A stretch of 64,000 nt of DNA from Urechidicola croceus (GTDB lineage: Bacteria; Bacteroidota; Bacteroidia; Flavobacteriales; Flavobacteriaceae), in NCBI GenBank assembly GCA_905181865.1, contig CAJIZG010000003.1:62001-126000 (forward strand), given 5' to 3'. The position numbers and the translations under genes are program-made. This document shows, one piece after another, positions 25,054 to 63,971 of the stretch. The notes under the pieces are model-generated. The model searched no databases and was not told the DNA's origin. It was given only the letters and a program-made list of their open reading frames with translations. How positions within the stretch are numbered: the first letter of the stretch is position 1; every line of letters begins with the position of its first letter.

Positions 25054-28000
25054 TTATTTTAAAATCCAGTGTAGACTATTCAATAAAATTTGTTGGTATG
25101 GTGCTAACGAATGTGCTCGATCATCATGACCAAGGGTGTTTCCAACTATATTTGCCTTCGGATGTTTTACTACCCATACTACCGGGAATTCCTCCCCCGA
25201 CTCTAATCCGCGTCCAACTGCCAACACTTCTATATCAGTACCTTTGGGATCTTTCTTCCAACGGTATAATTCATCTATAATTCTAAAGTTCGGTGGGATT
25301 CCCTTCATAATAGGATGATTTGGCCTAATTACTTTCACTTCAAATTCTTGTAATTTCTCATGTGATTCTGAACCACCTCCTACTAAGGTTTTGTTATATA
25401 TGGGCCAATCCTTCCAATTGTACCAGGTACTTGGATGTAAAATTAACATTCCTTTCCCATTATTTGCATGCTTCAAAACGGTCTCTTTAACACTTTCTGT
25501 ATATGGTTTGTTATTTGTTAACAACAACACATCTGCACTTTCAATTTTTTCTCCGAAAGCATCAATATCGCCTGTAAATTCTACAGAATTTTTTCCATTA
25601 TCACTTAAGATCTTACCATCTGCTATTCCGAAATATTTTAAGAAATCATGAGATCCACCTACTCCAACTGATAGTATTTTAGTGGCCTCTTTGTTTATTG
25701 ATGTATAGGTGCCTTTAGCCTCTACAATCAATACGCCTTGCATCATACGCCAATGTCCTGGGAAAGTACAAATAAATGGATAACGACCTGGCTTATCTGG
25801 CGCTTTAAAGTAGAAGGATCCTATACCATTTGGATCAATCATTTCAGTAGCACCAATTACATATCGTGACTTAGGAATGTAACCGGTAGAAGCTGCTTTT
25901 GGGTTTGATAAATATCCATCAACTAACGTACCAAAATCTTCTAGACTTCCCTGATCAATCAACACCAAATTATGAGGCATTTGATCTTTATTTGTCAATT
26001 TAATTTCTACAAACTGTCCGGTAGTAACGTGTAGTTCTTTTTTGTCAAATTCCATTTTTTGACTTACCGTATTTACATGTAATACTGCGTCAGGTTTTAA
26101 TTCACCTGCGACTCCAATTCCAGCATCTACATATTGATTACCACCTCTATTATTACAATGAATTGCGATTGTATTTTTACCCTTTTTGAATAACTTCTCA
26201 GACTCCTTATCTAGTTTAACATATTTATAAATTGAACTAGAACCTCTTACGTCTCTTACTAATTCTCCATTTACAAATACTTTAGCATTATCATCATGAA
26301 TAATTTTTAAAATTGGCTCACTAAGAGGACCTTCTAGTTGTGCGACTCTTCTTAGCCATATATCAGAAGTTTTCCATTTTGTCTTTAATTGGTTCCTTAT
26401 GACATCTCCATTTCCAAAAACACCTGTTCCAATTGACCATTGAGAATCATCAAAATCTTCTGAAGCCCAATTTTTAGTTGGTTTTGTAGTCGTATATCTC
26501 CATTCTAAAATCTCTTCCTCTGCTGATGGAATAATCATTTCTACTGCATTTGGATTTACAATATCAACATTTTGTTTTCTTGCATAAATATTTAAGGCGG
26601 CTACTAACCATTTATCATTTTGATTCTCTTCTATTTTTGAAATTTCTTCAATTGCATTACTTAATTCCAATGTTTCTGGAAATTCACTAGCTCTTAGTAG
26701 TGCCGATAATCTAACGTGTAAATTAGTACTCTTCAACAAATTTGAAGAAACTATTTCATTACTACTCTTAGAAGAACTAGGCAATAAAGAAAGTGCTGCT
26801 TTCTGAACGGCTGGCGAATTACTTTTAAGCCCTTTTAATAAGAGCGCTTCATCCAAACTATTCAATCCATCCAAAGTATATAATGCGTGCATTGCAGCAC
26901 CATTAAACCCTTGACCATTCGTGTTTTTATTAGATACCAGTTCTTTTAATTGCGAAATAAGTTCCTTCTTTCCACCTTCAACAATCAATCTTTGCGCTGT
27001 CGTTCTCCAAAACATATTATCACTTTTTAAAGCCTTGATAAGTTGATTTGAACCAGCATTCGCTAACGAATTGATATTTGACTTTTTACTATTCTTGATA
27101 CGAACTATATAAATTCTACCATGTCCTTTATCTCGTAATGGATTTAAGTGTGCATTTCCTTTGCCTTTATTTGCGTTCCAAATCTGATTATCCATACCAC
27201 GTTTATCTGGATTATGCTGTATTACAGGATTGTACCAGTCTGCTATCCAAACATTTCCGTCAGGTCCTGTTTCTGCAAAAACCGGGGCTGTCCATTCATC
27301 TGTACTTGCAAATAAATTCCCGCCATCTACTTCTTCATAACCAGCACCTTTTTCTTTGATATTCGCTAAATGCACAATGTGTCCGGTTGGCTCGCACACT
27401 AACATTTGTCCCCAATATTTCTGCGGAAAATTTCTAGCCGTATATAAATTCGCCCCTGCCGCGGCTGTATAACCGCCTCTAACATCTACCTGTTGCAAAG
27501 GGTTCTCCGCAACCGCTGTAATATCATAATGACCTTGGATAAAATCTGAATTGATCGCCCAAGAAGGTCGTTTTTTAGTATCATTTAAATAATTATAATG
27601 ACGTAATGGAATTCCTACATAACAGCAGTGGTTGTTATTCGCTGTAGAACCAAAGATTTCAAAATCTTCTCCAATTCCCATTCCCCAAGTATTATTATTA
27701 AATCTTCCAATAGGTTCAATGAAATCGCCTTTTTTTGAAAATCGATAAACGCCCATAGTAAACTTCACATCCTTCTCATTAAATGTATTTTCAAACCCAG
27801 AATATCCTACCGAACCCCAAATCATATTATCAGGACCATAGTGCAAGTTAGATGGACCGGCATGGGTATCAAACGTTCCAAACCCATCAAAAAGAACGGT
27901 ACGCTTATCCATTTTATCATCTCCATTTGTATCTTGTAAAAACACCATTTCTGGAGCCTGTGCAACAATAGCACCTCCCTTAACAATGGTAATTCCTGTA

Positions 28001-28383
28001 GATAAACTTTGCTCGGTGGCGAAGTCAATAAACGTATCCGCTTTTCCATCATTATTAGTATCCTCACAAATGGTGATGCGATCTCCTCCTACATCATTTG
28101 CCAAACCATGAGGATAATCTGTGGATTGCAATACCCATAAACGACCGCGCTCGTCCCAACTAAAAGCAATAGGATTAATAATGTTGGGCTCAGCAGCAAA
28201 CAATACAGTTTCAAATCCGTCTGGCACTTGAATATGTTTTTGCGAATCCTCTGGGCTTAATGGATTTTGAACTTTCGGTTCATTTCCAGCATAAGTCAAT
28301 GTTGGTTTTTGAGCTTTCATTGAAATAGATAGTAATAAAAGACTACATATCAATGCTTTAAAAAAGCAGTTATTATTTCTCAT
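25054..28383 (-). CDS. Giant secreted fusion: PVC-type propeller, HEAT, sandwich, azurin-like, ThuA
   Basis: 1109 residues from the ATG at 28383, chosen because it gives a good signal peptide (MRNNNCFFKALICSLLLL...) and a 25-base gap; a longer frame would overlap the cupin gene. Domain order: sorbosone/PVC-type membrane-bound-dehydrogenase propeller (~50-430; DERGRLWVL, DGKADTF, ETGPDGNVWIADWYN), HEAT repeats (~440-600), a galactose-binding-like sandwich (~625-765), a type-1 copper domain (~785-890) with His804, Cys872, His877 and Met881 in the azurin pattern (C-x4-H-x3-M), and a ThuA domain (~900-1109). No cytochrome c is present; copper seems to replace heme as the electron carrier. It probably oxidises a sugar in the periplasm. 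It is preceded by the cupin gene and followed by DUF1080. Confidence 0.88.
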   Translation of the reverse strand: MRNNNCFFKALICSLLLLSISMKAQKPTLTYAGNEPKVQNPLSPEDSQKHIQVPDGFETVLFAAEPNIINPIAFSWDERGRLWVLQSTDYPHGLANDVGGDRITICEDTNNDGKADTFIDFATEQSLSTGITIVKGGAIVAQAPEMVFLQDTNGDDKMDKRTVLFDGFGTFDTHAGPSNLHYGPDNMIWGSVGYSGFENTFNEKDVKFTMGVYRFSKKGDFIEPIGRFNNNTWGMGIGEDFEIFGSTANNNHCCYVGIPLRHYNYLNDTKKRPSWAINSDFIQGHYDITAVAENPLQQVDVRGGYTAAAGANLYTARNFPQKYWGQMLVCEPTGHIVHLANIKEKGAGYEEVDGGNLFASTDEWTAPVFAETGPDGNVWIADWYNPVIQHNPDKRGMDNQIWNANKGKGNAHLNPLRDKGHGRIYIVRIKNSKKSNINSLANAGSNQLIKALKSDNMFWRTTAQRLIVEGGKKELISQLKELVSNKNTNGQGFNGAAMHALYTLDGLNSLDEALLLKGLKSNSPAVQKAALSLLPSSSKSSNEIVSSNLLKSTNLHVRLSALLRASEFPETLELSNAIEEISKIEENQNDKWLVAALNIYARKQNVDIVNPNAVEMIIPSAEEEILEWRYTTTKPTKNWASEDFDDSQWSIGTGVFGNGDVIRNQLKTKWKTSDIWLRRVAQLEGPLSEPILKIIHDDNAKVFVNGELVRDVRGSSSIYKYVKLDKESEKLFKKGKNTIAIHCNNRGGNQYVDAGIGVAGELKPDAVLHVNTVSQKMEFDKKELHVTTGQFVEIKLTNKDQMPHNLVLIDQGSLEDFGTLVDGYLSNPKAASTGYIPKSRYVIGATEMIDPNGIGSFYFKAPDKPGRYPFICTFPGHWRMMQGVLIVEAKGTYTSINKEATKILSVGVGGSHDFLKYFGIADGKILSDNGKNSVEFTGDIDAFGEKIESADVLLLTNNKPYTESVKETVLKHANNGKGMLILHPSTWYNWKDWPIYNKTLVGGGSESHEKLQEFEVKVIRPNHPIMKGIPPNFRIIDELYRWKKDPKGTDIEVLAVGRGLESGEEFPVVWVVKHPKANIVGNTLGHDDRAHSLAPYQQILLNSLHWILK

Positions 28384-28408
28384 TATGCGAATTATATTAA
28401 GTGTTATT

Positions 28409-28813
28409 TTACTTTTTATAGGTATTATAGGGTGCATTCATGTACTCGTCAATAGTTCCTGCTTCCCAACCTTTCTCAGGTGATAAAATAGCTAAAAATT
28501 CTAAATCTTCATCTCCAGCATTAAACGTGGCATGTACAATATCTGGATCCATATAAATAGAATCTCCTGAAGTTAAAATTTCACTTTCATCCTCAATCCA
28601 ATGCTCGGCAGTACCTTTTAAAACGTATATAATTTCATTCATTTCAGGGTGTCGATGAAAATCGTGTTTCCCTCCTTTGGGCATCACTACTTTTACCATG
28701 ATAATTCCTGCTCCTTTGGTATGATCTGGAGAATAATGCCAAAAGTGATCTCTTCCGTCAACGGGCTCTATAATTGCATCTTTTCCAAATGTAAATTTAC
28801 TGTATTTCTCCAT
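28409..28813 (-). CDS. Small cupin protein
   Basis: A 134-residue cytoplasmic single-domain cupin. Motif 1 is HDFHRHPEMNEIIYVLKG (His-x-His ... Glu ligands, residues ~52-69) and motif 2 is DPDIVHATFNAGDEDLEFL (His ~94). The metal site looks complete. Its stop is 25 bases from the fusion gene start and its start is 3 bases from the PEP-hydrolase-family stop, so it is tightly coupled with that protein. Cupins often accompany Tm-1-like/PEP-hydrolase pairs; a sugar isomerase or regulator role is possible. Confidence 0.85.
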   Translation of the reverse strand: MEKYSKFTFGKDAIIEPVDGRDHFWHYSPDHTKGAGIIMVKVVMPKGGKHDFHRHPEMNEIIYVLKGTAEHWIEDESEILTSGDSIYMDPDIVHATFNAGDEDLEFLAILSPEKGWEAGTIDEYMNAPYNTYKK

Positions 28814-28816
28814 GAA

Positions 28817-29677
28817 TTAATTCAACTTGAGCTCTTTAAACTTTTTTGTCAAATCAGTTAGTGGTTTTTCAACACCCATTCTTTCTAAAGAAGACGCACC
28901 AACAAATCCGTGCACATCTGTACTATCTAAAATTACGCGAACGTCTTCAGGTGTATTAATAGGGCCACCATGCGCCAAAAATATTATTTCATTATTTACT
29001 TTTCGCGCAGCTTCAATTATTTCTTGCGTTCTTTCAATCGCAAAACCCATATCAACTGTAGCTCCAACGACTCCTATTGAACCTCCTACGGTAGTTCCAA
29101 CATGTGCGATAATTGAATCTGCTCCGGCCTCAGCCATTTGAACTGCCTCTTCTGCAGTTGCCACGTAGACGCATGAAAATAAATCCATTTTTGTAGCCAA
29201 AGCCACCATTTCTACTTCCTTTTGAAAACTCATTCCTGTTTCTTCTAGCACTTGTCTAAAATGTCCATCTATAATTGCATGTGTTGGAAAATTATTGATT
29301 CCAGAGAATCCCATGTCCTTCACTTGCTTTAAAAAATGCCACATTCTTCTTCTCGGATCAGAACCATGTACACCACAAAACACTGGGATTTCTTCCACAA
29401 TTGGAAGTACTTCAAACTCACCAATTTCCATTGCCACAGCATTTGCATCTCCATACGCCATAAGTCCTGCCGTTGATCCATGACCCGCCATTCTAAAACG
29501 TCCTGAGTTGTAAATAATGATAAAATCGGCACCTCCTTTTTCAATAAATTTTGCGCTGATTCCAGTTCCAGCACCTGCACCTATGATCGCTTTCTTTTGA
29601 GTAATAGTCGCTTTTAATCTTTCTCTTACTTCGTCTCTTGTATAGGGGTTTCCCTTACCTGTCCATGGGTTTGGCAT
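28817..29677 (-). CDS. Phosphoenolpyruvate hydrolase-family TIM barrel
   Basis: A 286-residue cytoplasmic protein matching PF09370: early ITQKKAIIGAGAGTGISAKF, then ADFIIIYNSGRFRMAGHGS, PVFCGVHGSDPRRRM, SGINNFPTHAIIDGHFR, ADSIIAHVGTTVGGSIG and FLAHGGPINTPEDV. The layout is a PEP-mutase/isocitrate-lyase-like or IGPS-like barrel, but the catalytic residues of those enzymes are not obvious. In plants and fungi the same domain is fused behind a UPF0261 domain in Tm-1-like proteins; here the two are separate neighbouring genes. The true reaction is unknown. Confidence 0.88.
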   Translation of the reverse strand: MPNPWTGKGNPYTRDEVRERLKATITQKKAIIGAGAGTGISAKFIEKGGADFIIIYNSGRFRMAGHGSTAGLMAYGDANAVAMEIGEFEVLPIVEEIPVFCGVHGSDPRRRMWHFLKQVKDMGFSGINNFPTHAIIDGHFRQVLEETGMSFQKEVEMVALATKMDLFSCVYVATAEEAVQMAEAGADSIIAHVGTTVGGSIGVVGATVDMGFAIERTQEIIEAARKVNNEIIFLAHGGPINTPEDVRVILDSTDVHGFVGASSLERMGVEKPLTDLTKKFKELKLN

Positions 29678-29748: not shown

Positions 29749-30984
29749 CTAAAGTATTTTAAGGAGGTTCTCTACCAATACATTTGCAAATTCATCATCA
29801 TTTATATTCAAGTCAAATTCTAATACTAAAATTTCAGCTTTTGTTTTTTCCTTTATTGTATCAAGTAAAATACGGTTATAGGTTGGTTGATAAAATATTC
29901 CTCCTTCAGTATCAATCTGTGAAATTCCTTTATTTGGCAAAAGTATGGCTGCGGGCGCCTTTGTTTTATTAATCTTACGCGCTATGACTTCTCCTAGTTT
30001 TCTGTTTTCTTCTGCATTGGTTCTCATCAAGGTTACGTCTGGAGCCCAACTATAAAGTTGTCTGTCTTTGTATTTTTCAGGCAAGGTGTCTATATGTGCA
30101 AAATTTACCATATCCAAGCATCCTGGCGCCACGATTTGAGGAATACCCATTTCAGAAGCCGCAGTCATTCTATCTGGTCCGGCACTACAAATTCCACCAA
30201 ACAATTCATCGGCTAATTCAGTCGTTGTAACATCTAAAACAGCATCAAAACATCCTTCACGTATTAGTGATTCCATCGTTAATCCACCTACACCATTTGC
30301 ATGAAACACCAATGCTTCATAGCCTTTCTCATTCAAGATTTCCTTACATTTATTTACACATTTGGTAGTATTACCGAACATACTAATTGCAATCGTTCCA
30401 TGCGACTTTTCCTTTTCTACTATTGTTACATTCGCCATACCGCAAATAGCGGCAGCAGCCTGTTTAATCAATAATTTACTTATACTATTCAAACCTGCCA
30501 CATCAACAACAGATGACATTAAAGTAATGTCTTTACTTCCAACTTGTCTAGAAACATCTTTCGCCGCCAACGTACTTAAACACAACTTTGGAATTCCAAG
30601 CGGAATTTCTTGCATAGCAGACAAGGCAATATACGTTCCTCCACCACCACCCATTCCAATGGCACCTTTTATTTTATTTTCTAAAACTAATTGAGAAATA
30701 ATTACTGCGGCTCCATTGCCCATGAACTCCACTGCCTTTCCTCTATCTTCAGAATTTCTAATTTCTTGTAGGGTGGCTCCTGCTTTTCGTGCAACTAGGT
30801 CAGCATTATAGTCAATTTTAAAATTGACACTACTCTCCATAACACCTGTATTTATGGTAATTACTTTCTGGCCAACTGCGAGAATATTTTCATATAAATA
30901 AGAAAAGTCTTCTCCTTTGGTATCAAAACAACCCAACATTAAAATATATTTACTAGAATTTGACTTGTTCTTAATTTCTTTCAT
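29749..30984 (-). CDS. Tm-1-like ATP-binding (UPF0261) protein
   Basis: A 411-residue cytoplasmic protein. It opens ILMLGCFDTKGEDFSYLYE, the standard UPF0261 start, and continues with GMGGGGGTYIALSAMQEIPLG, KLCLSTLAAKDVS, MSSVVDVAGLNSIS, FHANGVGGLTMESLIREG and a C-terminal PNKGISQIDTEGG segment. The family binds ATP in the tomato Tm-1 resistance protein; its bacterial role is not known. The gene overlaps the broken FG-GAP gene by ATGA and lies 71 bases upstream of the PEP-hydrolase-family gene. The two together make the split equivalent of the eukaryotic fusion. Confidence 0.9.
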   Translation of the reverse strand: MKEIKNKSNSSKYILMLGCFDTKGEDFSYLYENILAVGQKVITINTGVMESSVNFKIDYNADLVARKAGATLQEIRNSEDRGKAVEFMGNGAAVIISQLVLENKIKGAIGMGGGGGTYIALSAMQEIPLGIPKLCLSTLAAKDVSRQVGSKDITLMSSVVDVAGLNSISKLLIKQAAAAICGMANVTIVEKEKSHGTIAISMFGNTTKCVNKCKEILNEKGYEALVFHANGVGGLTMESLIREGCFDAVLDVTTTELADELFGGICSAGPDRMTAASEMGIPQIVAPGCLDMVNFAHIDTLPEKYKDRQLYSWAPDVTLMRTNAEENRKLGEVIARKINKTKAPAAILLPNKGISQIDTEGGIFYQPTYNRILLDTIKEKTKAEILVLEFDLNINDDEFANVLVENLLKIL

Positions 30985-48886: not shown

Positions 48887-51799
48887 TTATTTCACTGGTT
48901 TCTTAGTCATTGTGTACCACGTTTCCGTAGACCATAATTTCTGATCACTTTCACTTAAAAATGGTTTTTTTACACGAATATAAACTACCTTTCTGTCTTT
49001 TATTCCATTAGTTGCTAAGAATATCTTCTTGCGATCATCTGATAATTTGACCGCAGTTATTTTAAGTATTTCCACTCCTTTCTTTGGCCCTCCATAATCT
49101 TCTGTCGCCTCATAATAATATTGCTCCATTTCAAAATTTTCGATCTCAACTTCTTCGTTCTTGGCGATTGGTTCTGTCAATTCAATTTCCATCCCTCCTA
49201 CTTTTGCTTTTACCTCTAGCATTTCAAAAGTAGTTTTAGCATTGTAATTAAATCGATGCAGTGCGTACCATTCTCTACCTTCATGTCGCCAGTTTCCGCC
49301 AGAACCAATTCCTCCAGCATATAATTGACCATCTGGCCCCCAAACGGTTCTATTAATACCTGCATCTAATCCTTGAATAAAGCGGAATACAGCACCCTGC
49401 TTCACCCCATCAACTTCATCTATAAATATTCTTTTTATTCCTCCATGCGTGACATCCCCATAAATCATTTGATCTTTATACGGCCCTATATTCAATATAG
49501 CCTGCTGACTCGGTGAATTACTTATTTCAACATGCGGTAACCAAACCAATGGAGGTTGCTCTTCATATTCTTTTACGCGATCCCAATCTGCATGTCTAAA
49601 TCCGTACCATTTTCCTTTTTCTACACGTACAATTTTACTTGTTGGAATCCAATTCCCTTGATTGTCTGAAACATATAATGCTCCGTCTGGTCCCTCAGAA
49701 ATTCCGTTAGGGGTTCTAAAACCTTCCGCTATAAATTCTAATTCACTTCCATCTTTACTAATTCTAACAACTTTACCTCTATGGGGAACATTCTTATATT
49801 GTGATCCTAAATCTGTAGCAAGCGTTGCATAAAAACTTCCCTCTTTATAGACCAATCCAAAAGCAAACTCATGATAATGTGGCGTAACATGCCATGCATC
49901 ACTTACCTTTCTATATTCATCTGTAATCCCATCGCCATCATTGTCGATTAACTTCGTTAACTCTTGTTTTTGTAAAACATAAATCTCTCCATCGACAATT
50001 TTTATTCCTAAGGGCTCTGCCAACCCTTGCGCAATCTGTTTTACTTCTATTTTTGAAGGATCATCCGTATTGTAATTCTTTAAAACATAGACCGCACCTG
50101 TTTCGTCCCATGTACAAATAATCATCTGCTCTTTGTCTATAAAATCAATCCCACCTATTCTCGGATTAAAATCAGCCGGTTTTGCCTGAAACATATCAAA
50201 GGATGGATGCACTGCATCTAATGGCATTTTATCTCCAGGAGATCCTCCAACAAATTTCAATTCATAAGGTAATAATTTTTTAAACGGCTTTGCGTCATGA
50301 TAAAATACGGTTTCTGGAACTACTGTAAATGTTTTATCGTCATCTGACCATTGCAATGAAACCGCAGATCCTCCGCCGCCTTGATGAAATTGTAATTTAA
50401 ATGTATTGTATCCTCTTTTTAAGCTTCCTTTTCCATCCACTGCGATAGCTGCATGACTCCCTTTATTGTCTATAATTTCCTTACCATTTAATTTTAATAT
50501 AGATCCGTCATCACTTACCAGTCTAAAGGTTTTTAGAGCAGCCGCATCCGTTTTGATATATCCATTAAATTCTACATAAAAATTTTCTTTCAATTCACTT
50601 AAACCACCTGCACTTGGCAAATGAATAGCAGAAGCAACACCATTAAAAATAGGCTGTGTACTATTTACTAATTTATCATACATATCGCCACTATCATTGG
50701 CTTGATATAAAACAACGGCAATTCCAGCTTGTTTTTTATTTTTATCTCCTAAAGTTCTATCTATAGCATCTAATGCTACCTCAATACCTTCTGTACTTGC
50801 AAACAGATCAATCTTTTCTTTTATAGGCTCTGGTTCACCATCAAGCGACAATAAATAATACACCATATCTTGCGCTGCTTCTTTTGAAAGATCTGGATGG
50901 GCCGACATCGCTATGTTTCCCCAAGTACCCGTACCTCCTGCTCTGACCTTACCAACCAACAAGTCAATTGTAGGATGATTAAATGAATACCGTTTTGCAA
51001 TAGAATCATAAGCGGGTCCTACTAAATTTTCGTTTTGAAGATGACAAGCAGCACAATCATTTTGAGAAATTAATTTCTTTCCTCTCGCAATTTTACCAGA
51101 TAAATCCAATACAGGTACTTTCCAACCTTCTGGAATTGGCTTGAAATAGGTTTTTACTACACTTTTTTTAGAAATTTCAATTTCATCATTATTTCTAGTA
51201 ATTTCATCTCCATTCATAATTTCTTTATAAACGACATCGTCTTTTAAAGCATATGTAACCAAGGGAACAAGGCCATTCTCGGCTCCTTTAAGAATCGTAA
51301 ATGTTCTAACAAAGCCTGAGTGATTTCCGTATACGTCAAATTCTGGAATCTCACGAACCGTAACCGATTTTCCAGATTTAGCAATTAATTCAAAATCAAT
51401 CCCAACCTGATCTCCAATCATAGTATATCCCAGATAATTAATCTCTGGAATTTCTATACCACCACTCGTTTTTAATTGCCACTGCGTTTCTGTAGAACCA
51501 TCTTCGGCATAGGTATATCCAAAACTAGTTGGCTGAATTCCGTGAGCCGTTGTATAAACTGCCCCATCATAATTAACGCCACCTTTCCAAACTTTGTATA
51601 AGTTCCCGTATTGTAGATTATAACTAGCGTATAAGTCTTTATTTAAAGCCACCGTTAACATTCTAGGCTGCTTATCTATTACCGAACGAAACACCCACGT
51701 GTCTTTTGGACGTTCATAACCGGCAGGTGTACTGCAAGAAATGCATGTTACGAGTACTAATAAAACAATAATTGTTTCTTGAAAGTTTGGAAGTTTCAT
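48887..51799 (-). CDS. Giant PVC-type propeller lipoprotein with N-terminal cytochrome c and PA14
   Basis: 970 residues from the ATG at 51799, chosen because it gives a clean lipobox (CISC, Cys22); a longer frame lacks a signal. Domain order is unusual: a DUF6797-like beta region (~30-235), a cytochrome c with CAACH at 249-253 and a likely Met ligand at 298, a PA14-type carbohydrate-binding barrel (~387-512; NGYIKTDAAALKTFRLVSDDG, LQWSDDDKTF), and a sorbosone-dehydrogenase-like propeller (~530-870; GLAEPLGIKIVDGEIYVLQ, RTPNGISEGPDGALYVSDN, TVWGPDGQLYAGGIGSGG). The heme therefore precedes the propeller, opposite to the other cytochrome fusions here. PA14 suggests direct sugar binding. A divergent operon starts 212 bases away. 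Confidence 0.9.
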   Translation of the reverse strand: MKLPNFQETIIVLLVLVTCISCSTPAGYERPKDTWVFRSVIDKQPRMLTVALNKDLYASYNLQYGNLYKVWKGGVNYDGAVYTTAHGIQPTSFGYTYAEDGSTETQWQLKTSGGIEIPEINYLGYTMIGDQVGIDFELIAKSGKSVTVREIPEFDVYGNHSGFVRTFTILKGAENGLVPLVTYALKDDVVYKEIMNGDEITRNNDEIEISKKSVVKTYFKPIPEGWKVPVLDLSGKIARGKKLISQNDCAACHLQNENLVGPAYDSIAKRYSFNHPTIDLLVGKVRAGGTGTWGNIAMSAHPDLSKEAAQDMVYYLLSLDGEPEPIKEKIDLFASTEGIEVALDAIDRTLGDKNKKQAGIAVVLYQANDSGDMYDKLVNSTQPIFNGVASAIHLPSAGGLSELKENFYVEFNGYIKTDAAALKTFRLVSDDGSILKLNGKEIIDNKGSHAAIAVDGKGSLKRGYNTFKLQFHQGGGGSAVSLQWSDDDKTFTVVPETVFYHDAKPFKKLLPYELKFVGGSPGDKMPLDAVHPSFDMFQAKPADFNPRIGGIDFIDKEQMIICTWDETGAVYVLKNYNTDDPSKIEVKQIAQGLAEPLGIKIVDGEIYVLQKQELTKLIDNDGDGITDEYRKVSDAWHVTPHYHEFAFGLVYKEGSFYATLATDLGSQYKNVPHRGKVVRISKDGSELEFIAEGFRTPNGISEGPDGALYVSDNQGNWIPTSKIVRVEKGKWYGFRHADWDRVKEYEEQPPLVWLPHVEISNSPSQQAILNIGPYKDQMIYGDVTHGGIKRIFIDEVDGVKQGAVFRFIQGLDAGINRTVWGPDGQLYAGGIGSGGNWRHEGREWYALHRFNYNAKTTFEMLEVKAKVGGMEIELTEPIAKNEEVEIENFEMEQYYYEATEDYGGPKKGVEILKITAVKLSDDRKKIFLATNGIKDRKVVYIRVKKPFLSESDQKLWSTETWYTMTKKPVK

Positions 51800-52011
51800 C
51801 TTTAAAAATTTAAAAACGATAAAATTAATCAATATCAAACGGATAGCAAGTTATAATCTAACTTTTAAAGTCATCCATTTTAGTAACTCGATAAGCGATT
51901 TTAAGTTCATAATTAGGGACTGGTTAGTACATTTAAAAATTCATGAGTTAAATATCTTATTTTTTTTCTATCTTGTTCAATTAAATTAACTACTAACCAA
52001 TATATTTATAT

Positions 52012-60815: not shown

Positions 60816-61733
60816 TTAGTTGGCGTCTGGTGCTTCTAACCCTTCCCAAAGAGTTACAGCTTTTGCATTTGGAAAGTCACTACTTATCGTTTGCGTTACA
60901 TCACCTGTAACTACCCATTCTGCACCTCGTAAAAGTGTGGTAATAAAACCAGCACATTTTACGCTGTTCAAACTGTTTTTACCTGTATGCCCAAGTACGG
61001 AGTGAAACACTCTTCCTTTTCCGTAATTGATAGTCATCAACATTGGTTCTTGTCGTCCTGAACCTCCGCTTTCCTTTTTTTGTGATGCTGTAGCTAATAC
61101 CGTCATATTATTTGCTGGCCCTCTTAAACTATGGTATAATTCGTCTTTTGAATGCATCCACACTGAGGGCAACCCTTTCATGATCGGGTGCTCAGAATTT
61201 CTAGTTCTTACTACAAAATCTTCTTGTTCTCCGTGAGAGCCACCTCTTCCTGGAGAATTGTCTCGTACAAATTCACCATTTTTCCAATATACATAAGGTC
61301 CATCCTTTTCAGTTCTATTACCCCATCCGCCAAGACCAATCATTTCATTAAATTCTTTCCACTTAGGAAACGAATTGTCTGAAGCATGAAAAACAACCAA
61401 TCCACCGCCTTTCTTCACAAACTTTACAAATTTATTTTGTGTTTTATCAGACCAATAATCTCCATTATAATCCAAACATACTAAATCGTACTTTTTAAAT
61501 TTCGGACTAAATTCAGACATGTCTTCTCCTTTTGAAGGCGAAACAATTACCGTTGCATTAAACAGATCGCTATTGTTAAAAGTTTTTGCTACAATTTTAG
61601 AACTTCCTTGCCAATAATGGTTATTTTGACCTGTTACGATAAGTACTTCATATTTTTGTGCTAATGAATTTATACTATTGAAGACTACCAGCAGTATTAG
61701 TAGCATTTTAAATTTTGATTTTACTATTTTCAT
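60816..61733 (-). CDS. Secreted ThuA-domain protein
   Basis: A 305-residue exported protein (signal peptide 1-25, ending INSLAQ). One ThuA domain: YEVLIVTGQNNHYWQGSSKI, YDLVCLDYNGDYWSDKTQ, KFVKKGGGLVVFHASDNSFP, EHPIMKGLPSVWMHSKDELYHSLRG and GKGRVFHSVLGHTGKNS. It is the second stand-alone ThuA protein of the window and closest in context to the cytochrome fusion (6 bases away), matching the pairing of a propeller dehydrogenase and ThuA seen as one fused protein at 25-28 kb. That linkage supports joint action on oxidised sugars. Confidence 0.9.
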   Translation of the reverse strand: MKIVKSKFKMLLILLVVFNSINSLAQKYEVLIVTGQNNHYWQGSSKIVAKTFNNSDLFNATVIVSPSKGEDMSEFSPKFKKYDLVCLDYNGDYWSDKTQNKFVKFVKKGGGLVVFHASDNSFPKWKEFNEMIGLGGWGNRTEKDGPYVYWKNGEFVRDNSPGRGGSHGEQEDFVVRTRNSEHPIMKGLPSVWMHSKDELYHSLRGPANNMTVLATASQKKESGGSGRQEPMLMTINYGKGRVFHSVLGHTGKNSLNSVKCAGFITTLLRGAEWVVTGDVTQTISSDFPNAKAVTLWEGLEAPDAN

Positions 61734-61739
61734 GTTTTA

Positions 61740-63971
61740 CTATTTAAAAAGTTCTTTGGTTGTGTAATATGACTTCTTATCTTCTGTTGTTTCTCTTATC
61801 TCTCTTACTTCTTTTGCTGATACTAAATCTTCATTATTCATAATTCTAATATAACTAAGAACATTTGACACCCAGTTATTATCATTGCTTTCCATTGGCA
61901 TCATAATTCCATAATCCGTTCCCTCAATTGGCCCAGTAAGTCCTTTCAAAAGAATTTTTATAAGTACTTCTTTATTTCCTTTCACTCTAGCTGATCTAAT
62001 TAATGGAGGCGCAATTAATGTGTTTTCTCCAGTAGGCACTCCCATTAAATCAGATCCATGACACGTAGTACATACTTGTTTGTAAATATCATACCCTTTT
62101 AGAGCTCTACTCTTATCTCCGTTTGATTTTGACTTAATTATCTTTTTAAACTTATTTAAGTCCGTATCATTTACTTTTAAACTTGCCGTTGCAGCGTAAC
62201 TTACAATTTCATGAGTTTCATGTTTTTTCTGAATAGATTTCAATAGTTCCATCGCCGCTTTACTAGAACTATGTCGAAGACTCAATGCCAATTGATTGAC
62301 TACATTTATATCCTTATCAATTTTAAAAGGCTCTAAAATCTCTAGGATTGTAGTATCTCTTTCCTTTAAAAAAGTTTCACATAACCGTATTGCTGTTATT
62401 CGAACTCTAGTATCTTCATCTTTTAATTTTTCTACTATTAATTTTCTATCCACCACTCCCAATCCTTCTAAAACCCATAAGGCATGAACTCGTTCTATAC
62501 CGTAATCCGTACTGTTTTTAAAAGTTCGAGTCCAAACTGATTCATTGGATTTAGCAATTTCTTTTAATAACGGAATTACCGATTTGTCATTTTTTAAAAT
62601 AATTAATTTTTGAGCGGTATCTCTATACCAGCCGTTCGCATGCCCCAAATAGGATAATAATTCTGTAGCTGATTTTTCCAATAAATTTGGTCTTCCATCG
62701 GGTTTAATGTCTTCATGTACAATCCGATAAATCCTTCCTCTTCCAAAGTTTTTATCTAAATTTTTCCGAACAATATGTGGCCGTATTTTACTTCCTTCAC
62801 GTGTCCAATTACTCTCTTGAATAATTCCTCTATACATATCTACTATATACAAACAACCGTCTGGACCTGTTTTCGCCTGTACTGGTCTAAAATTCAAATC
62901 TGTAGAAGCCATAAACTCTGCGTTCTCATAAGCATTATACAATACTTTCTTTCCGTTTTCGTTCTTCACTTTAGCTCTACGAATAAGTCTTCCTACAGGT
63001 TCTGGAATAAAAAGATCACCATACGTAGACGGAGGTAGTTTGTTCCCTCGATAAATTTCTTGCCCTGCTATTCCGGTAAATCTATTCAAAGTTCCATCCG
63101 GTTTTAATCTTCGTTCCACTCCACCCTGCACATCTGGAGTTCCAACTATAGGATAAGGAATTTCAAAGTCTTTTGCCAATCTTCCTTTAGGGTCGTAACT
63201 TCCATAATTTGGTGGGTTTTGATACCCATAGGCAGGATTCTCTCCACCCGCTGTAGAGTAGTATATGTGACCTAAATCATCATGGGTTAGTCCCCATTGT
63301 CCTCTCGTATAGCTTTCTAAAGTATCTACTTCCAATTTATTATCTGTAAATCGAAACCTCATAGGATTATAGGTAGTATACACCCAATTATCCAAATTCC
63401 AAATCAAACCGCTTTGTTGATGCTCTAAATTTCCACCACGTTTTTTTGGATGTGTGTATACCGGTATTTTTTCATCTGCAACTCCATCTCCATTCGTATC
63501 CCTATAACTTGTTAAATTATAAGAATATGTTTCATTTACAATTAATCGATCTTCCAATGCTAGAATCATTCTTGGCAAAAGCAAACTATCAATAAAAACA
63601 GAACTTTTATCCATTTTACCATCACCATTTATATCTTCTAATAACATGATACGACTTGTAGGTTCATCTATACCCTCTCCATCAACATTTTGCATATAGG
63701 TTTCCATTTGAGCCACATACATTTTACCATTTCCATCCCAATCAATAGCCACAGGTTCATTAATCATGGGCTCACTCGCAACTAGTTCTAGTTTAAAACC
63801 TTCAGGCAAGTACATTTTTTTCATACTTTCCTCTGGTGACAGAAAATCCGATGGAGCCTCTCTTACTATTTCTGGTTTCTCATATATCTTGTCAATATAT
63901 TCTTTTTTACTACATGCCGAAAACACCATAATTGTTAAAATTACAACACTTAATACATTGGTTTTTTTCAT
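61740..63971 (-). CDS. PVC-type propeller lipoprotein with HEAT repeats and C-terminal cytochrome c
   Basis: A 743-residue lipoprotein (Cys20, FSAC). Residues ~50-420 are the membrane-bound-dehydrogenase propeller (GFKLELVASEPMINEPVAIDW, DINGDGKMDKSSVF, RPVQAKTGPDGCLYIVDMYRG). HEAT repeats occupy ~425-600, and a cytochrome c has CTTCH at 634-638 with a Met cluster near 690-693. This is the compact version of the family. It leads an operon with ThuA, a broken sulfatase and an intact sulfatase. The likely job is oxidation of a desulfated or sulfated sugar outside the cytoplasm. Confidence 0.9.
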   Translation of the reverse strand: MKKTNVLSVVILTIMVFSACSKKEYIDKIYEKPEIVREAPSDFLSPEESMKKMYLPEGFKLELVASEPMINEPVAIDWDGNGKMYVAQMETYMQNVDGEGIDEPTSRIMLLEDINGDGKMDKSSVFIDSLLLPRMILALEDRLIVNETYSYNLTSYRDTNGDGVADEKIPVYTHPKKRGGNLEHQQSGLIWNLDNWVYTTYNPMRFRFTDNKLEVDTLESYTRGQWGLTHDDLGHIYYSTAGGENPAYGYQNPPNYGSYDPKGRLAKDFEIPYPIVGTPDVQGGVERRLKPDGTLNRFTGIAGQEIYRGNKLPPSTYGDLFIPEPVGRLIRRAKVKNENGKKVLYNAYENAEFMASTDLNFRPVQAKTGPDGCLYIVDMYRGIIQESNWTREGSKIRPHIVRKNLDKNFGRGRIYRIVHEDIKPDGRPNLLEKSATELLSYLGHANGWYRDTAQKLIILKNDKSVIPLLKEIAKSNESVWTRTFKNSTDYGIERVHALWVLEGLGVVDRKLIVEKLKDEDTRVRITAIRLCETFLKERDTTILEILEPFKIDKDINVVNQLALSLRHSSSKAAMELLKSIQKKHETHEIVSYAATASLKVNDTDLNKFKKIIKSKSNGDKSRALKGYDIYKQVCTTCHGSDLMGVPTGENTLIAPPLIRSARVKGNKEVLIKILLKGLTGPIEGTDYGIMMPMESNDNNWVSNVLSYIRIMNNEDLVSAKEVREIRETTEDKKSYYTTKELFK

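Follow-up and report, generated by a model that had tools for sequence, protein, structure and literature searches.

The PVC-type DUF7133/TIGR02604 cytochrome c proteins combine a propeller with helical repeats and often with a C-terminal one-electron carrier. A similar propeller fold is found in the aldose and soluble sugar dehydrogenases that use pyrroloquinoline quinone (PQQ; 3a9g, 1qbi) and in AA12 enzymes (6h7t), and a His-Cys-His-Met ligand set characterizes the cupredoxins of the auracyanin and azurin type. Among copper nitrite reductases, one core enzyme bears a tethered azurin in one species and a tethered cytochrome c in another, according to the accessible part of one report (PMC9358711). 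The protein considered here is encoded in a 64,000-nucleotide stretch of the Urechidicola croceus genome (Flavobacteriaceae; contig CAJIZG010000003.1, positions 62,001 to 126,000), which as a whole is referred to as the window. Its single chain joins a DUF7133 propeller, HEAT-like repeats, a beta-sandwich, an azurin-like copper domain and a ThuA domain. Comparison of predicted domains among its relatives shows that the carrier on this propeller is an exchangeable module, occurring as a fused azurin, a separate azurin or a fused cytochrome c.

The window protein differs from each of these systems. The PVC-type proteins belong to its propeller family but bind heme rather than copper, and 8 of the 12 cytochrome-type DUF7133 relatives examined keep the arginine of an F-R-P motif, the other four being without it. 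The PQQ sugar dehydrogenases and AA12 enzymes share the propeller fold (Z 21-25), with a possible catalytic His in a weak alignment; however, a search of PDB sequences with the propeller profile returned no match at E 10, and the arginine stretch is altered in the window family. Unlike auracyanins and azurins, the window cupredoxin is a domain within a big protein, scoring 34.9 bits on the azurin model TIGR02695 against a cut-off of 105.1. Two proteins of the same genome with the order ThuA-GSDH-PKD-cytochrome c (L138 3242-6655, 1137 aa; L139 1631-4993, 1120 aa) likewise combine a ThuA domain with a dehydrogenase-type propeller and a carrier on a single chain, but belong to another propeller family and another ThuA lineage and carry a cytochrome and a PKD domain. 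The nearest precedent for the principle is provided by copper nitrite reductases with a tethered azurin or cytochrome, although their core is unrelated and electrons enter it, whereas those of the window protein would leave it.

A scan of a one-genome-per-species collection yielded 477 relatives, of which the best 80 loci were kept; their ranking against a full-length azurin-bearing query favors azurin in the counts drawn from them. These loci split into two types. Type A, which includes the window protein, has the order propeller-HEAT-sandwich-azurin-ThuA; in type B, ThuA is N-terminal and azurin comes last. A fairer carrier count was obtained when only the propeller served as query against 296 Bacteroidota genomes (E 1e-90, at most six candidates scored per genome); the places found were matched to an azurin-domain search of the same sample. 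Among 34 close propellers in 26 genomes, azurin is fused in 28 and encoded separately nearby in four, cytochrome c is fused in one, and one has neither. The carrier was read from the stretch itself for 23 of them, and the remaining 11 (two in G301, and one each in G210, G001, G305:C8, G428, G222, G255, G336, G332 and G420) were assigned only by coincidence of coordinates and frame length. The separate azurin gene adjoins the propeller in L201, L203 and L204 (Copper-bind E 4.5e-12 in L203), and in L202 it lies about 1.2 kb off with an opposite-strand open reading frame (ORF) between. At the level of predicted domains, carrier exchange across the family is thereby shown to be real.

The claim of the first-pass annotation that a copper carrier stands where relatives have cytochrome c is best demonstrated by an orthologous cluster of four loci, L187, L188, L189 and L199. 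Protein L188 has a cytochrome c domain (PF00034, residues 874-966, E 1.7e-10) in the azurin's place; with the azurin forms L187, L189 and L199 it shares 65-67% identity, and the sequences align collinearly up to the carrier. A first tree started from 28 chosen loci of the 80 and was restricted to rows with a match in the repeat region, and in a later one two long-branch outgroup rows were dropped and six rows added. L188 is sister to L189 (support 99/92) within the four-member clade (100/99). Cupin, UPF0261 and PEP_hydrolase genes lie in that order upstream of L187, L188 and L189, and the order upstream of L199 is the same as far as its stretch reaches, which begins inside the cupin gene. A separate type-A ThuA gene precedes the cupin gene in L187 and L188 and is not in the L189 stretch; an isomerase gene lies behind L188 only. 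Because L188 sits inside an azurin clade, the tree suggests that in this pair azurin gave way to cytochrome. The two forms, with azurin or cytochrome c occupying the equivalent position in the same enzyme and gene cluster, make up a natural pair in which carrier exchange is directly testable. In the lineage of the window protein, azurin is the prevailing state of the clade. The idea that its azurin was a one-off replacement of a cytochrome in a single protein was rejected, as azurin prevails throughout the clade.

The window gene is a single unbroken ORF from ATG 28437 (Table 1). An in-frame ATG at 28383, 18 residues downstream and taken as the start in the first-pass annotation, was judged by eye to be likelier, because the signal peptide is cleaner and overlap with the cupin gene is avoided. 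A rough lipobox pattern was present in 32 of the 38 proteins of clade A and 31 of the 40 of clade B, but not in the window protein. The five modules originally proposed are all present, as judged from Pfam, an AlphaFold2 model and the relatives. DUF7133 (PF23500) scores 352.3 bits against a curated cut-off of 27, covering positions 1-384 of the 385 in the profile. The model, built from 47 sequences (mean pLDDT 83.1, pTM 0.69), contains elements that fit a propeller, eleven helices (residues 463-618), a beta-sandwich, a cupredoxin and an alpha/beta ThuA domain. A Pfam scan of the window protein at E 0.1 gave no scoring HEAT family, and HEAT_2 scores in one clade B relative. The sandwich (about residues 641-780) is an all-beta region of the model; structural matches of the whole model include GH2 glycosidase chains, and BetaGal_ABD2 scores in one relative, which supports the assignment. 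ThuA (PF06283) scores 86.4 bits against a cut-off of 33.4, and its region matches 4e5v with Z 21.9 and a root-mean-square deviation (rmsd) of 2.5 over 203 aligned residues. The protein also reaches 218.9 bits on the NCBIfam model TIGR02604, "PVC-type heme-binding CxxCH protein" (cut-off 122.2). Since it passes this cut-off although a search of its sequence found no CxxCH heme motif, automatic annotation based on TIGR02604 would wrongly label it heme-binding, and the case exposes where such annotation errs.

The copper region falls within Copper-bind (PF00127; residues 788-906, 36.2 bits against a cut-off of 21.2). The ligands first listed as His804, Cys872, His877 and Met881 proved correct and correspond to H822, C890, H895 and M899 in full-length numbering (offset 18). 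They stand in the context M-P-H-N ... C-T-F-P-G-H-W-R-M-M, the axial Met being the second M. All four are unchanged in 47 of 47 aligned rows, namely the window protein and 46 relatives (26 of the 38 in clade A and 20 of the 40 in clade B); they are likewise invariant in a second set of 20 chosen rows. The complete pattern also recurs in all 78 of the related ORFs that are not truncated at a contig end, a set that excludes L055, L056 and L072 as cut and retains L064, whose propeller lies in two frames. A type-1 copper site with the ligand set His-Cys-His-Met is thus predicted. The best phmmer matches are 6kol, titled auracyanin (E 3.3e-13), and auracyanin A (E 1.5e-12), and Foldseek gave TMt values of 0.82 and 0.86 for the domain. 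With auracyanins nearest and the azurin score far under its cut-off, the domain is by sequence nearer to auracyanin than to azurin proper, and "azurin-like" or "auracyanin-like" is the right term.

Table 1 Features of the window protein and its conserved neighbors (coordinates in the window)
Feature	Coordinates	Strand	Remarks
Whole gene	25054..28437	-	1127 aa; likelier start ATG 28383
Probable Sec signal peptide, residues 19-42	28312..28383	-	Judged by eye; no lipobox seen
DUF7133 beta-propeller, residues 61-448	27094..28257	-	Pfam E 5.5e-105; structural match 3a9g
H192 of DTHAGPSNL, tentative candidate for the place of the sGDH catalytic His	27862..27864	-	Invariance; weak hhalign register
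Alpha-helical HEAT-like repeats, residues 455-640	26518..27075	-	Eleven model helices 463-618; HEAT_2 in clade B relative
Beta-sandwich, residues 641-780	26098..26517	-	Model strands; GH2 structural matches; BetaGal_ABD2 in relative
Azurin/auracyanin-like cupredoxin, residues 784-907	25717..26088	-	Pfam E 8.3e-9; phmmer; Foldseek
Predicted copper ligand H822	25972..25974	-	Invariant in alignment
Predicted copper ligand C890	25768..25770	-	Invariant in alignment
Predicted copper ligand H895	25753..25755	-	Invariant in alignment
Predicted copper ligand M899	25741..25743	-	Invariant in alignment
ThuA domain, residues 917-1127	25057..25689	-	Pfam E 4.3e-24 (943-1124); 4e5v structural match
Cupin gene, conserved neighbor	28409..28813	-	33/40 clade A loci
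PEP_hydrolase (TBST) gene, conserved neighbor	28817..29677	-	39/40 clade A loci
UPF0261 (Tm-1-like) gene, conserved neighbor	29749..30984	-	29/40 clade A loci

Taken together, the protein may be an exported dehydrogenase linked to a redox partner through a tethered, exchangeable carrier, a proposal to which we give an even chance. The propeller would take electrons from a small sugar, sugar acid or cyclitol and pass them to the predicted type-1 copper of the tethered cupredoxin, from which they would reach a periplasmic cytochrome or terminal oxidase. The ThuA domain would bind or convert the keto product, which might then be imported and handled by the cupin, UPF0261 and PEP_hydrolase proteins encoded beside it. 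Because a glycerate kinase gene lies near in 15 of the 40 type-A loci (some of which are cut by contig ends), the route may in some genomes lead towards glycerate. The presence of a carrier, attached or nearby, in 33 of the 34 propellers supports this proposal, as do the fold of the propeller, the copper motif found complete in every uncut relative, the cytochrome c of L188, the repeated assembly of propeller, ThuA and carrier, and the conserved gene neighborhood.

Several observations weigh against it, the first of which concerns the ThuA domain: a ThuA-like fold serves as a plain levan-binding domain of a glycan-binding protein, as the available portion of PMC7618045 describes. A ThuA domain that holds the substrate or docks, rather than acting as an enzyme, would also suit its shifting between the N-terminus, the C-terminus and a separate gene. 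All 16 type-A ThuA rows agree at many residues, including seven His and an Asp-Glu pair, which hints at catalysis, but a binding site could be conserved too; we regard a docking role as possible, if somewhat unlikely.

The second point lies in the propeller. The best structural match is the PQQ sugar dehydrogenase 3a9g (Z 25.5, rmsd 3.2, 286 aligned residues), followed by AA12 (6h7t, Z 24.6) and soluble glucose dehydrogenase (sGDH, Z 21-22); some of the top-matching PQQ enzyme structures were solved with PQQ. Close behind, at Z about 21, come propeller lactonases and diisopropyl fluorophosphatase (DFPase; 20-22 for lactonases, SMP30 and DFPase), and for this reason the fold alone is no proof of oxidation. 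A PDB search with a cytochrome-type propeller of the window gave 165 matches, the best 60 of which were all calmodulins or a calmodulin-based indicator. H192, in the motif D-T-H-A-G-P-S-N-L, is unchanged in 47 of 47 aligned rows and may tentatively be the equivalent of the catalytic His of sGDH, an enzyme type in which positively charged residues also bind PQQ. In hhalign comparisons with GSDH, the azurin-type profile is in register at the His motif with an insignificant score (prob 2.4, E 0.019), and a broad profile scores well (prob 92.6, E 4.5e-7), yet is out of register there. Both place W-x-[AGS]-P-V opposite the R-x-R-D stretch of GSDH, with a register uncertain by about two residues, and all active-site mapping onto GSDH or sGDH is tentative. 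At the place of the family's arginine, A, S or G stands in every azurin-type protein read (77 of 77; one of the 78 was unmatched by the pattern). The cytochrome-bearing L188 also lacks the arginine, with S there, so its loss follows the clade and not the carrier. In 10 genomes, all PqqE matches fell below the cut-off and PqqC gave none; because the controls likewise gave PqqE only below the cut-off (14/14) and PqqC not at all, an absence of PQQ genes is not demonstrated.

The sugar oxidation suggested in the first-pass annotation is therefore partly supported: the predicted fold is that of PQQ sugar dehydrogenases, whereas the arginine place and the lack of a PQQ synthesis gene above cut-off, under weak controls, do not fit. 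An ordinary sugar dehydrogenase using PQQ or a scavenged quinone, with azurin as acceptor and a rearranged cofactor site, would explain why the top structural matches are PQQ enzymes, some with PQQ; a GSDH-family gene is present in the same genome despite no PQQ synthesis gene above cut-off, which makes uptake conceivable. The A, S or G at the arginine place speaks against such an enzyme, with the caveat that the sGDH mapping is itself weak, and we consider it unlikely. A propeller acting as a metal-dependent lactonase, hydrolase or isomerase, with the copper domain a leftover or mere copper binder, would agree with the lactonase, SMP30 and DFPase matches, the missing arginine and the weakly controlled PQQ-gene search, but is highly doubtful given that a one-electron carrier, azurin or cytochrome, accompanies all but one of the 34 propellers, that a cytochrome in the azurin's place is most easily explained by electron transfer, and that the copper ligands are invariant.

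Further points against the dehydrogenase proposal come from distribution and gene order. The gene family is unevenly distributed: of the 149 genomes from the window's taxonomic family, 13, its own included, match at E 1e-60 (six of them with a type-A protein, fused or split), and the sole other genome of the same genus in the sample gave no match at that threshold. L215 has no carrier in the stretch read, where its ThuA and propeller parts also lie in different frames. Of the 19 PEP_hydrolase genes, four (two in G396, one in G435 and one in G384) have no such propeller behind them. No biochemistry for the family was found in the open PMC literature, where no paper on an azurin-propeller-ThuA protein was recognized among the matches listed; in the accessible text of an azurin survey (PMC8779525), the words fused, fusion, ThuA and dehydrogenase do not occur. 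The description of the protein as a self-contained sugar-oxidation machine is weakened because ThuA and azurin are separate genes in some relatives and the gene belongs to a conserved cluster. The window protein is modular, but it is neither a self-contained machine nor a proven sugar oxidizer.

The ThuA domain is modular as well, being fused at the N- or C-terminus or encoded by a separate gene. A tree of chosen ThuA rows, from which one short ThuA of the same genome was dropped and which carried warnings of unsettled bootstrap and long branches, contains two lineages joined with DUF7133, a C-terminal or separate type (100/100) and an N-terminal type (93/99). In the later of the two trees that concern L188, the 16 C-terminal fusions group with three separate-ThuA relatives in a single clade (100/100). 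That the C-terminal ThuA arose from the N-terminal one by circular permutation was rejected, as the ThuA tree contains two separate lineages. Exceptions to the type-A order are 11 loci in which ThuA is a separate gene directly downstream and three in which a separate ThuA follows an intact fusion; no ThuA was found in the type-A locus L059. The clusters of L187 and L188 each contain a separate type-A ThuA gene besides a type-B fusion, which suggests that the window fusion arose by a neighboring ThuA gene joining a propeller-azurin gene, with loss of the N-terminal ThuA. An N-terminal ThuA fusion with an adjacent separate type-A ThuA gene is also seen in Parapedobacter (L104 9365-13592). The triad of propeller, ThuA and carrier was assembled more than once, since two ThuA lineages occur with DUF7133 and the same genome encodes ThuA-GSDH-PKD-cytochrome c proteins.

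The gene neighborhoods of the two types were also compared. Type-B loci have Gfo/Idh/MocA (37/39), TIM-barrel isomerase (36/39) and AraC-type regulator (31/39) genes nearby. A reverse search at E 1e-30 found 19 PEP_hydrolase genes in 18 of the 296 Bacteroidota genomes, 15 of which are followed by a same-strand propeller: 13 with azurin, one with cytochrome (L188) and one cut by the contig end (L193, not placed on a tree). Adjacency was taken from coordinates and some read stretches, and a DUF7133-azurin frame in G384, encoded on the opposite strand at a distance of about 5 kb, was not counted. The available text of PMC5028733 describes UPF0261 and TBST as separate, co-evolving halves of plant Tm-1-like proteins and calls UPF0261 uncharacterized; the window UPF0261 protein matches a solved Tm-1 protein at E 2.2e-76. 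These genes, the UPF0261 and PEP_hydrolase halves with no known role, are thereby tied in Bacteroidota to a predicted periplasmic copper-linked dehydrogenase. A more far-reaching possibility, which we hold to be distinctly unlikely, is that the clade represents a new class of propeller oxidoreductase with no cofactor or a non-PQQ one, that the tethered blue copper is its immediate electron acceptor, and that its product is the substrate of the UPF0261/TBST (Tm-1) pair, the gene order revealing the ancestral metabolic role of the plant Tm-1-like protein.

Downstream in the window lie DUF1080, DUF6807 and Gfo/Idh genes. DUF1080 is a putative 3-ketoglycoside hydrolase in the accessible part of PMC9007349, and BT2158 is a glycoside 3-dehydrogenase in that of PMC11300592. 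Because these three genes are not among the neighbors found in at least 5 of the 40 type-A loci, a 3-keto-glycoside reading fits the surroundings but not surely the window enzyme.

The first-pass statement that the other three giant propeller proteins of the window use cytochrome c stands in that all score above the cytochrome c cut-off of 21.3 bits; two do so barely (23.2 and 22.7), and one, at 743 aa, is hardly giant. The genome as a whole encodes 15 DUF7133-matching proteins, of which 12, including window 48887-51838 and L137 2808-5801, have CxxCH and three have azurin: the window protein, a type-B paralogue and a distant 656-aa protein (L137 6035-8005). The last has a C-terminal azurin domain on a propeller that stays below the DUF7133 cut-off (19.4 against 27 bits), and it adjoins a cytochrome-bearing protein whose propeller is related to its own (28.8% identity across 465 columns). 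Azurin has thus become attached to another, distant propeller line too. The azurin-domain search of the 296 genomes repeatedly gave azurin-bearing frames of about 650-730 aa. The type-B paralogue (L032 8987-12492, contig C2) is open from propeller to azurin, but its ThuA part is broken into two open segments that lie in different frames and are separated by stops. In Paraglaciecola (Pseudomonadota), a type-B fusion (L096) is nested among Bacteroidota rows, perhaps through horizontal transfer. At window positions 60816-63971, a ThuA gene and a DUF7133-cytochrome c gene stand 6 bases apart, forming an unfused cytochrome counterpart of the fusion described here.

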